Source: Candidatus Magnetomicrobium cryptolimnococcus | GTDB taxonomy: Bacteria; Nitrospirota; Thermodesulfovibrionia; Thermodesulfovibrionales; Magnetobacteriaceae | Length of the DNA stretch: 52,983 bases | Direction: 5' to 3' | Assembly: GCA_018606805.1 (NCBI GenBank) | Contig: JAGYWI010000021.1 | Coordinates: 1-52,983, forward strand | Part shown: in pieces, positions 34,250-37,209 of the stretch | Layout: every line of letters starts with the position of its first letter | Numbering within the stretch: the first letter of the stretch is position 1 | The notes under the pieces: model-generated | What the model was told of the DNA's origin: nothing | What the model saw: the letters and a program-made list of their open reading frames with translations, nothing else | The model's database searches: none | Program-made: the position numbers and the translations under genes

Positions 34250-35410
34250 ATGGAAGGCGAAAGGGCACAGTACAAAGGGCAAAAAGATAAATTCTACAAT
34301 ATAGTAATGACTGGTGATGTAATCAAGGGCAAAGACATTAATGAATGCAAAACTAAGCTATCATCAGTTTTCCACATACCAGTTAGTAAGGTTGAATCAT
34401 ACTGTAGGGGTGAAAGAAAGGTTGTAAAAAAACATTTAGATATTGATAAAGCTAAAAAATACAAACAAGTGCTTATCGCCATTGGATTTCAGTGCACTAT
34501 TGAACCAGTTAAAGAAAAAGCCTTGTTAACAAAACCTATGATTAAAGCAAAGCAACAGGACTTTCAAAGGGATAAGCATAAAGAAATACCAATGGCAATT
34601 GAAGACAAAGCAAAAGAAGAGGCACAAGAGGAACAATTAGAGGAAGAACCCGAAAGAGTACGTGTCATACACGAGGAATTTCCACAAATCCACATACCAA
34701 CCCCCAAAAAAGACGAGACACCGCCTCCTCCGTTTTTTTCACAAATTGCCAAGGTTTTCATCTATCCATTTATTGGAAATGGCAAACTGCTATTAATAGC
34801 AGGAACTTTGACGTTTTTTGTACTAAGCCACATACCATTTACCAAACTTTACGGCCAACTACTTGTTAGTGGTTATATGATTGCATATATGATGAAAATA
34901 ATCACAAGTTCAGCAAAAGGCGAAAAAGAATTACCCGATTGGCCTGATTTTACAGATATAACAGATGATATAATAAGACCAATATTTATGATGATTGCAG
35001 CCATAGTTGTAAGTAATATCCCAACTATTGCATATGCTGCATATAAATATAATGTTTCTTCAATCCAAATAAACGACCCCATATTATTAACATTACCATT
35101 TATAGGAACATTATATTTCCCAATGTCCCTTATTACAATGTCCATATCTAATTCAATAAAGGGCTTAAACCCTGTGCTTGTTATAAAATCCATATTTAGC
35201 GTGCCAGTTGAGTATTTTTTTACACTATTATTCCTATTTATCATCGTAGGCATTGGTCTTGCGGAACAAATATTTATTGCTTATATAAAAATCCCATACG
35301 TTACGCCTATCATAAGCACGTTTCTGTCCATTTATTTTGCCACAGTGGAGATGAGACTACTTGGGCTTTTAATATATTGCAATAGGGAGAGATTTGATTG
35401 GTCTGTATAG
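34250..35410 (+). CDS. DUF4013-like membrane protein with N-terminal regulatory domain
   Basis: 386 aa. Residues 15-88 form a small alpha/beta domain (FYNIVMTGDVIKGKDINECKTKL region, KVVKKHLDIDKAKKYKQVLIAIG). This domain is found at the N-terminus of assorted proteobacterial envelope proteins and has the GxxxxGxD and IKKxLDxxxAxKY pattern. A Glu/Pro-rich linker (90-165) follows. The C-terminal half has about six membrane spans resembling DUF4013 (FIYPFIGNGKLLLIAG, GEKELPDWPDF, FPMSLITMSIS). Function unknown. GGAGG is 8 bases before the ATG. Its TAG stop lies inside the first bases of a MITE end. Confidence 0.75.
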   Translation: MEGERAQYKGQKDKFYNIVMTGDVIKGKDINECKTKLSSVFHIPVSKVESYCRGERKVVKKHLDIDKAKKYKQVLIAIGFQCTIEPVKEKALLTKPMIKAKQQDFQRDKHKEIPMAIEDKAKEEAQEEQLEEEPERVRVIHEEFPQIHIPTPKKDETPPPPFFSQIAKVFIYPFIGNGKLLLIAGTLTFFVLSHIPFTKLYGQLLVSGYMIAYMMKIITSSAKGEKELPDWPDFTDITDDIIRPIFMMIAAIVVSNIPTIAYAAYKYNVSSIQINDPILLTLPFIGTLYFPMSLITMSISNSIKGLNPVLVIKSIFSVPVEYFFTLLFLFIIVGIGLAEQIFIAYIKIPYVTPIISTFLSIYFATVEMRLLGLLIYCNRERFDWSV

Positions 35411-35545
35411 TATACCCAAACAAATTAGGTTTACAAACCACTATTAAGAAACAAATACACAGTGAGGGCAGAGCCCTCACTGTGTATTTGTTTCCTTATT
35501 ATTTCTTACGCACTTTTTTTGTCAAAAAAGGTTTTCCCCCATGCC
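35404..35545. repeat. MITE end, 22-bp-arm perfect palindrome and hairpin-family tail
   Basis: TAGTATACCCAAACAAAT then TAGGTTTACA (from 35408) is the MITE terminus. A palindrome follows with 22-base perfect arms at 35448-35469 and 35473-35494 around AGA (GAAACAAATACACAGTGAGG and its complement). Then comes GGTTTTCCCCCATGCC, the tail of the hairpin family. No second MITE terminus is evident. A pyrimidine-rich tract (35546-35585) follows. Confidence 0.7.
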
Positions 35546-35590
35546 TCTTCTTTTTCTTTTGTCTTTTTTTTATTTTTCTTTTCTTTACAC

Positions 35591-35622
35591 TTGCCCTTTA
35601 GTACCAATATCTGTTATATAAT
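35591..35622 (+). promoter_or_regulatory. Candidate sigma-70-type promoter of a small RNA
   Basis: TTGCCC (35591-35596) and TATAAT (35617-35622) stand 20 bp apart; an alternative -10, TTATAT (35614-35619), gives 17 bp. No coding region begins nearby. Start of transcription is expected near 35629. Confidence 0.45.
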
Positions 35623-35628
35623 ATATGA

Positions 35629-35795
35629 AAGGGCAAATTGCCTGCCCTGCTGGTGATTGGAATAGAAAAACTGATTCTATAATTAGGTTTCAGGGTGTCT
35701 GGGTAAGGTATATAATGCAGGCCGGCACCTATGTGTGTTGGAAGCAGCGTATTTCTTTAGGACCCCATACTAGAAAAATGGGATCTAATTTTTTT
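35629..35795 (+). ncRNA. Candidate structured small RNA upstream of rarA
   Basis: A promoter-like element precedes it and a hairpin plus T tract closes it, giving about 165 nt. Internal pairing includes ATAGAA with TTCTAT around a 7-nt loop, and GGTGTCTGG with CCGGCACC (one bulge). CTGCT near the 5' side pairs weakly with AGCAG near the 3' side and would enclose both. No good protein frame with a ribosome site is present. Size and location next to rarA recall 6S RNA of some bacteria, but the long rod with central bubble is not clear, so identity is open. It could alternatively be a long rarA leader. Confidence 0.4.
35761..35795 (+). terminator. Intrinsic terminator of the candidate small RNA
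   Basis: GACCCCAT and ATGGGATC form an 8-bp stem (one weak pair) around a 9-base loop, followed within a few bases by a run of seven T. A second, weaker hairpin with five T follows at 35796-35820 (CGCC with GGCG). Confidence 0.6.
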
Positions 35796-35949
35796 CGCCA
35801 CACCGCAAGGGCGGGTTTTTAATATAAATGACGGAAGGCTTTTGTAATTCAATTACATTACGGTTAGCATACCGGGATTTTATGACATAAAATTGGGAGT
35901 GTGTCTTTCAGTTACGGTTACAAAAGGGCCTGAGGAAGGATGATTATCG

Positions 35950-37209
35950 TTGGAATTATTTATAAAGGAAAGAAGTGGAGTGCCTCTGGCGTGGAGGATG
36001 AGGCCAAAGAGTATTGCAGAGGTTGTTGGTCAGAAACATATACTTGGAAAGGGAAAGTCTCTTTACAATCTTATAGAAAATGATAAAATAGTATCGGTGA
36101 TTTTTTATGGTCCACCGGGCAGTGGTAAGACTGCTGTTGCGCATATAATTGCAAAAAAGACAAAGGCTCTTTTTATTGAGATAAACGCCGTTACAAGTGG
36201 CATCAAGGAGATAAGAAGTGCTGTTGACAAGGCAAAGTATGGTAAAACTATTGTTTTTATAGATGAAATACATAGGTTCAACAAGACCCAGCAAGATGCC
36301 CTTTTGCCACATATAGAAAAGGGGGAAATAATATTAATAGGTGCCTCGACGGAAAACCCGTATTTTGCATTAACGCCGGCGCTTTCATCAAGAACTACTG
36401 TTTTTCAATTCAATACCTTAGAAGATGAATCTTTAAGGCAGATTTTAAAAAATGCACTTACTACTAACAATTACCAAGTTGTTTTTAGTGACGATGCCAT
36501 TGATTACATAATACACATTTCTTCAGGAGACGCTAGAAAGGCTTTAAACACGCTTGAATTAGTTATTTTATGCTATAAAGAAAGTGCTGTTCATTTGGAA
36601 ATCATAAGCAAAGAACACGTAATGGATATAACGCAGGATAAGGCGTTGTACTATGATGAATCTACTCATTATGACACGATTTCAGCTTTTATAAAAAGTG
36701 TAAGGGGCTCTCATCCTGATGCAGCCTTATATTGGCTTGCCTGTATGATAGAATGCGGTGAAGACCCGCTATTTATAGCTAGAAGGCTTATCATACTGGC
36801 TTCGGAGGATATTGGAAATGCCGACCCCTATGCCCTTACTATGGCTGTAGCAACACATCAGGCTATTGAACGAATAGGCATGCCTGAGGGCAAATTGGTT
36901 TTAGCTCAAACCACAGTGTATTTATCGCAAGCGCCAAAAAGTAATTCTGCTGTGATTGCCATAGAGTCTGCATTATCTGCGGTTAGGGATTTTCCTGTAC
37001 AGAAAGTACCATTGCATTTACGGGATTGTCATTATAAAGGCGCTAAAAATTTAGGTGTTGGTGGATATAAGTATCCACACGATTATGCTGGACATTATGT
37101 TGAGCAGGATTACATGGAAGAGGCGATGTCTTTTTACAAACCTACTTCAGAGGGATTTGAAAAGGAAATTAAAAAACGATTAGACGGGAGGCTAAAGAAA
37201 GATGTATAG
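35950..37209 (+). CDS. rarA: Replication-associated recombination protein A (MgsA/RarA) AAA ATPase
   Basis: This 419-aa clamp-loader-like AAA+ ATPase acts at stalled replication forks. Opening motifs [22 protein letters not shown], Walker A GPPGSGKT (54-61), Walker B with DEIHRFNK (105-112), the [17 protein letters not shown] sensor region and the C-terminal [17 protein letters not shown] are all family marks. The start is TTG at 35950 with AAGGA about 10 bases upstream; the ATG at 35940 is out of frame. The 3' end overlaps rny by 8 bases. It leads the plus-strand run that extends to oppC. Confidence 0.95.

Follow-up and report, generated by a model that had tools for sequence, protein, structure and literature searches.

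6S RNA is small and well known; by mimicking an open promoter, it parks RNA polymerase once growth slows. For B. subtilis 6S-1, it has been described that pRNA synthesis starts with G at C40, that a hairpin forms in the 3' bubble and that, as in Aquifex, a helix of the collapse type is formed (PMC8876501); the part of that report drawn on here offers no covariation evidence for the collapse helix. The amount and length of B. subtilis 6S-1 pRNA rise with NTP concentration, and above all with that of the initiating GTP, according to the part of PMC12005410 used here. In the corresponding part of PMC8414754, a GG at pRNA positions 4/5 or 5/6 is given as a conserved feature of 6S RNAs from LAB and reference species, and rarA is placed upstream of the LAB 6S gene.

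The window studied here, i.e. the whole stretch of 52,983 nucleotides from Candidatus Magnetomicrobium cryptolimnococcus that was analysed, carries a locus which we take, with a probability of about 97%, to be the single 6S RNA gene (ssrS / 6S-1 type) of the genome. Its RNA resembles RF00013 (ssrS) over the whole model, in the rod made of closing stem, central bubble and apical arm, in predicted length and in the conserved closing-stem block, and differs from it in a low score (49.2 bits) and in the template near the pRNA start, which is UC and not CC. Compared with B. subtilis 6S-1 as described in the portion of PMC8876501 drawn on, the pRNA is predicted to start with A opposite U35680 rather than with G, and the 3'-bubble hairpin is disfavoured in the fold (0.0). 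With the LAB 6S RNAs, as far as the account in PMC8414754 was used, the gene shares its position next to rarA, yet here rarA lies downstream on the same strand. Altogether, the 6S gene near rarA is a slightly divergent, otherwise ordinary member of RF00013.

The identity of the locus is established by covariance-model searches, a check proposed in the initial annotation of this DNA. The Rfam 6S model (RF00013) matches 35636-35821 on the predicted (+) strand and spans model positions 1-187 of 187. The score of 49.2 bits exceeds the gathering score of 46.4 by just 2.8 bits, this match is the sole one above gathering in the whole window (Rfam release 15), and 42 of the 51 Rfam 6S pairs are standard pairs in the window. 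A covariance model built on 16 same-family relatives, with the window left out (R2), places the gene at 35628-35822 with 105.4 bits (E 1.3e-29) in a search of the whole genome (3.59-Mb assembly), where the runner-up place reaches 13.1 bits. A model with the window included (R1) likewise finds this place alone in the genome, by construction, and neither the R1 nor the R2 search detected a second 6S copy there. Furthermore, 58 of 60 searched genomes, our own included, contain a 6S match (56 above the cut-off), and so do 17 of the 19 genomes of the own family; the two misses are the same in both counts and are 79% and 75% complete. Rfam 6S scores elsewhere in the family are mostly 55-76 bits. Three weak additional Rfam 6S hits in one genome (G005) had no R1 match at E 0.05 and were thus treated as chance. 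The list of ORFs has none of 80 aa or more within the RNA. The initial annotation was right to see, upstream of rarA, a gene that encodes no protein and has a promoter-like element as well as a closing hairpin plus T tract. The features of the locus are collected in Table 1.

Table 1. Predicted features of the 6S RNA locus and its surroundings (positions within the window).
Feature	Position	Strand	Basis
Predicted sigma-A-type promoter: TTGCCC 35591-35596, N18, extended -10 TGT-TATATA 35615-35620	35591..35622	+	sequence
6S RNA, predicted transcript of ~195 nt	35628..35822	+	RF00013 match and R2; ends inferred from promoter and T tract
Closing stem P1, 5' strand (CCTGCCCTGCTGGT)	35641..35654	+	pair probability 0.94-1.0
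Helix P2, 5' strand (partner 35781-35785)	35673..35677	+	pair probability 0.98
Predicted template base for pRNA start (pRNA 5'-AUAGAAUCAG)	35680..35680	+	family alignment; inferred
5' central-bubble strand; collapse helix with 35779-35790 once P2 is open	35681..35692	+	fold, covariation
Apical arm	35693..35766	+	listed pairs at probability 0.96-1.0; covariation
3' strand common to P2 and collapse helix; runs into seven T (35789-35795)	35779..35790	+	
P1 3' strand and T tract 35816-35820	35802..35820	+	sequence, fold, covariation
rarA (MgsA family AAA+ ATPase), neighbour outside the RNA	35950..37209	+	Pfam MgsA_C 6.8e-65

The MFE fold of 35625-35830 has -65.1 kcal/mol (z = -2.73; equally stable shuffles 1/200) and forms one long rod, although the expected long rod had initially been judged not evident. 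Two internal helices that had been read from the letters do not appear in this structure: ATAGAA/TTCTAT (35662-35667/35675-35680) is present in the DNA, yet has a predicted pair probability of 0.01, and instead of GGTGTCTGG with CCGGCACC, the fold pairs GGGTGTCTGG with 35753-35766 and CCGGC with 35737-35741. From the double terminator that had been proposed, the second hairpin, formed by the closing-stem 3' strand and followed by its T tract, is indeed predicted to end the gene, whereas the first, with seven T at 35789-35795, is internal to the RNA, its GGATC (35781-35785) being the 3' strand of P2 at a probability of 0.98.

The rod is also conserved among relatives. Our alignment comprises 43 of the 51 available 6S loci, window included; L004, L008, L015, L020, L021, L049, L050 and L051 were omitted by eye, with no formal rule, some being near copies, one carrying a long insert and two being divergent. 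The RNAalifold consensus on the 43 sequences has 42 pairs, 27 of which have changed on both sides, so that comparative folding in relatives, another of the checks proposed, revealed conservation with compensatory changes. In the consensus rod 92.4% of cells pair, compared to 81.1% in shuffled and 41-49% in slid alignments, and the covariation score is 0.414 versus 0.203 shuffled (0/500 as high) and 0.087-0.132 slid. Within the closing stem P1, 98.1% of cells are paired over 12 counted pairs, nine of them invariant in the 43 sequences. The rod trait of RF00013, namely closing stem, central bubble and apical arm kept by compensatory changes, is present here. In the omitted L049, the 6S match (2001-2249, 249 bases, 37-39 bits) lies next to rarA and has an apparent insert of ~60 bases in the apical arm.

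The predicted promoter scores 9.5, which is weak taken alone, as 6 of 50 shuffles equal it, and a scan that scores strict hexamers does not contain it; a second -10 candidate, TATAAT at 35617-35622, overlaps TATATA. The layout TTGC...TG-n-TATAAA is repeated upstream of many 6S homologues. A perfect 9-base inverted repeat, TTGCCCTTT / AAAGGGCAA (35591-35599 and 35628-35636), flanks the -10 region; its right arm is like the closing-stem 3' strand and may be able to pair with the 5' GCCTGCCC of the same RNA. At the place of the repeat, several family members have GGGCAA stretches, in tandem copies in L035. Further upstream, a perfect 20-pair hairpin (35448-35494) lies between a DUF4013 gene (34250-35410) and the 6S promoter and is probably the terminator of that gene; sub-threshold hits of other Rfam models at 35400-35600 centre on it.

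The 3' strand around GGGATCTAATT has two alternative partners, the 5' strand that precedes the pRNA start, giving P2, or the bubble strand that follows this start, giving the collapse helix. In the window, the collapse helix consists of 12 contiguous predicted pairs, 35681-35692 with 35779-35790, and ranks among the longest of the 43 sequences. Its score is 18.85 within sequences versus 15.94 (sd 0.47) between them, that of P2 13.65 versus 12.04 (sd 0.25), and in both cases 0/5000 permutations are as high, a result obtained on 40 distinct rows and inflated by shared ancestry. Paired changes are seen in L006 (ACUUGAAUCU with GGGUUCAAGU) and in L010 (GUUAUAUCU with GGAUAUAAC). When the 8-14 bases that the pRNA would cover are blocked in the window fold, the probability of P2 drops from 0.98 to 0 and that of the collapse helix rises from 0.01 to 0.95-0.97; with the bubble strand shuffled 200 times, the 11.6 pairs of the window are never reached. 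As in the B. subtilis type, the P2 3' strand can re-pair in the predicted fold with the distal 5' bubble strand once P2 has been opened. At least six collapse-helix pairs form in 31 of the 43 sequences after the pRNA block compared to 2 before. The 12 sequences in which they do not form are ten from the same-family genera g2 and g4, plus L036 and L010; the ten are all members of these genera in the alignment, hence the switch is not universal even within the family. Altogether, both P2 and the collapse helix are supported by covariation and folding.

At the predicted start column, the pRNA base is G in 41 of the 43 sequences, A in the window and U in L036, the latter being counted by column and an alignment matter, as the next column would be C (pRNA G). 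Likewise, 41 of 43 sequences carry CC as the template dinucleotide, the exceptions being the window with UC and L048 with CU. The predicted pRNA of the window begins 5'-AUAGAAUC and has GA at 4/5; a GG at 4/5 or 5/6 is absent from it, whereas the LAB pRNAs, in the part of PMC8414754 drawn on, keep GG at 5/6. This GG is a reported conserved trait and not a defining one, and L048 is without CC too. Since the B. subtilis 6S-1 pRNA tracks the initiating GTP, the A start, which comes from one assembly and could reflect a sequencing error, is a testable departure. A tentative and rather unlikely reading is that 6S release has been retuned in this lineage, such that the complete 12-pair zip-up of the bubble would offset the weaker hybrid between an A-start GA pRNA and its template; with the A start and GA in place of GG, release would then follow ATP, not GTP.

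The gene rarA begins 129 nt downstream of the 6S RNA on the same strand. Of 16 further 6S loci from the family, 8 show the same arrangement, while in the other 8 rarA was not found within 3-4 kb downstream; across the order it is found in 8 of 34 other loci (flanks mostly 1.5 kb). Conversely, a search of 80 other rarA loci at E 0.05 gave 10 with a match to the 6S model that lies upstream of rarA and on its strand. With rarA next to only part of the 6S loci, the neighbourhood is common, not universal, and judged from such sequence matches it appears to extend past Firmicutes. The adjacency in the family, in LAB (as given in the part of PMC8414754 used) and at other rarA loci indicates that the link is known and broad. 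A 6S-model match just upstream of rarA is also seen in L057, L081, L098 and L106, whose records read Nitrospira, Lentisphaerae, Verrucomicrobia and Kiritimatiellia.

The initial annotation had left three options, a divergent 6S RNA, a rarA leader or a new RNA, and it is the divergent 6S RNA that RF00013, R2 and covariation bear out. As a cis-acting leader, the RNA would form the rarA 5' untranslated region and control the gene by attenuation, which would suit the same-strand rarA so close downstream and the two T tracts after stems that could serve as attenuators. However, the structure is that of a complete 6S RNA and the first T tract is part of the rod; because half of the other family loci (8/16) have a 6S RNA of the same structure with no rarA found in the 3-4 kb downstream, a leader is hardly credible. 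The idea of a novel class of RNA with no relation to 6S drew on nothing but the impression that no rod was visible, and is for practical purposes excluded by the 6S family match, with 6S RNA in 58 of 60 genomes, covariation and the 105.4 bits of R2 pointing the same way.

A homologous 6S gene that has decayed and no longer works would explain both the low Rfam score (49.2 bits, where others of the family mostly have 55-76) and the changed pRNA start, with UC and not CC at the template. Yet in the predicted fold pairing is retained in the closing stem, P2, the collapse helix and the apical arm, the collapse helix is one of the longest in the alignment, and the gene is the only 6S copy of its genome, with a 6S gene kept in nearly all relatives. 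We consider decay very improbable.

For the working 6S RNA that we favour, the model we regard as most likely combines open-promoter mimicry, a pRNA started at U35680 and release by a switch from P2 to the collapse helix. By analogy with the family, the rod with its central bubble would mimic an open promoter and capture the housekeeping sigma-A RNA polymerase as growth slows. Upon nutrient resupply, the polymerase would copy a short pRNA from the bubble, starting opposite U35680, and this pRNA would open P2 and free the 3' strand 35779-35790. The freed strand would zip onto the 12 bases between pRNA start and apical arm (35681-35692) and so close the bubble, which may help to eject the polymerase, as is known for B. 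subtilis.

In summary, our analysis settles the identity of the locus as 6S RNA and sets right two misread features. The compensatory changes in 43 sequences provide comparative support for the collapse helix, which has been described from probing in B. subtilis. As a natural variant of the pRNA start, this RNA could be used to examine if release is set by the initiating nucleotide.
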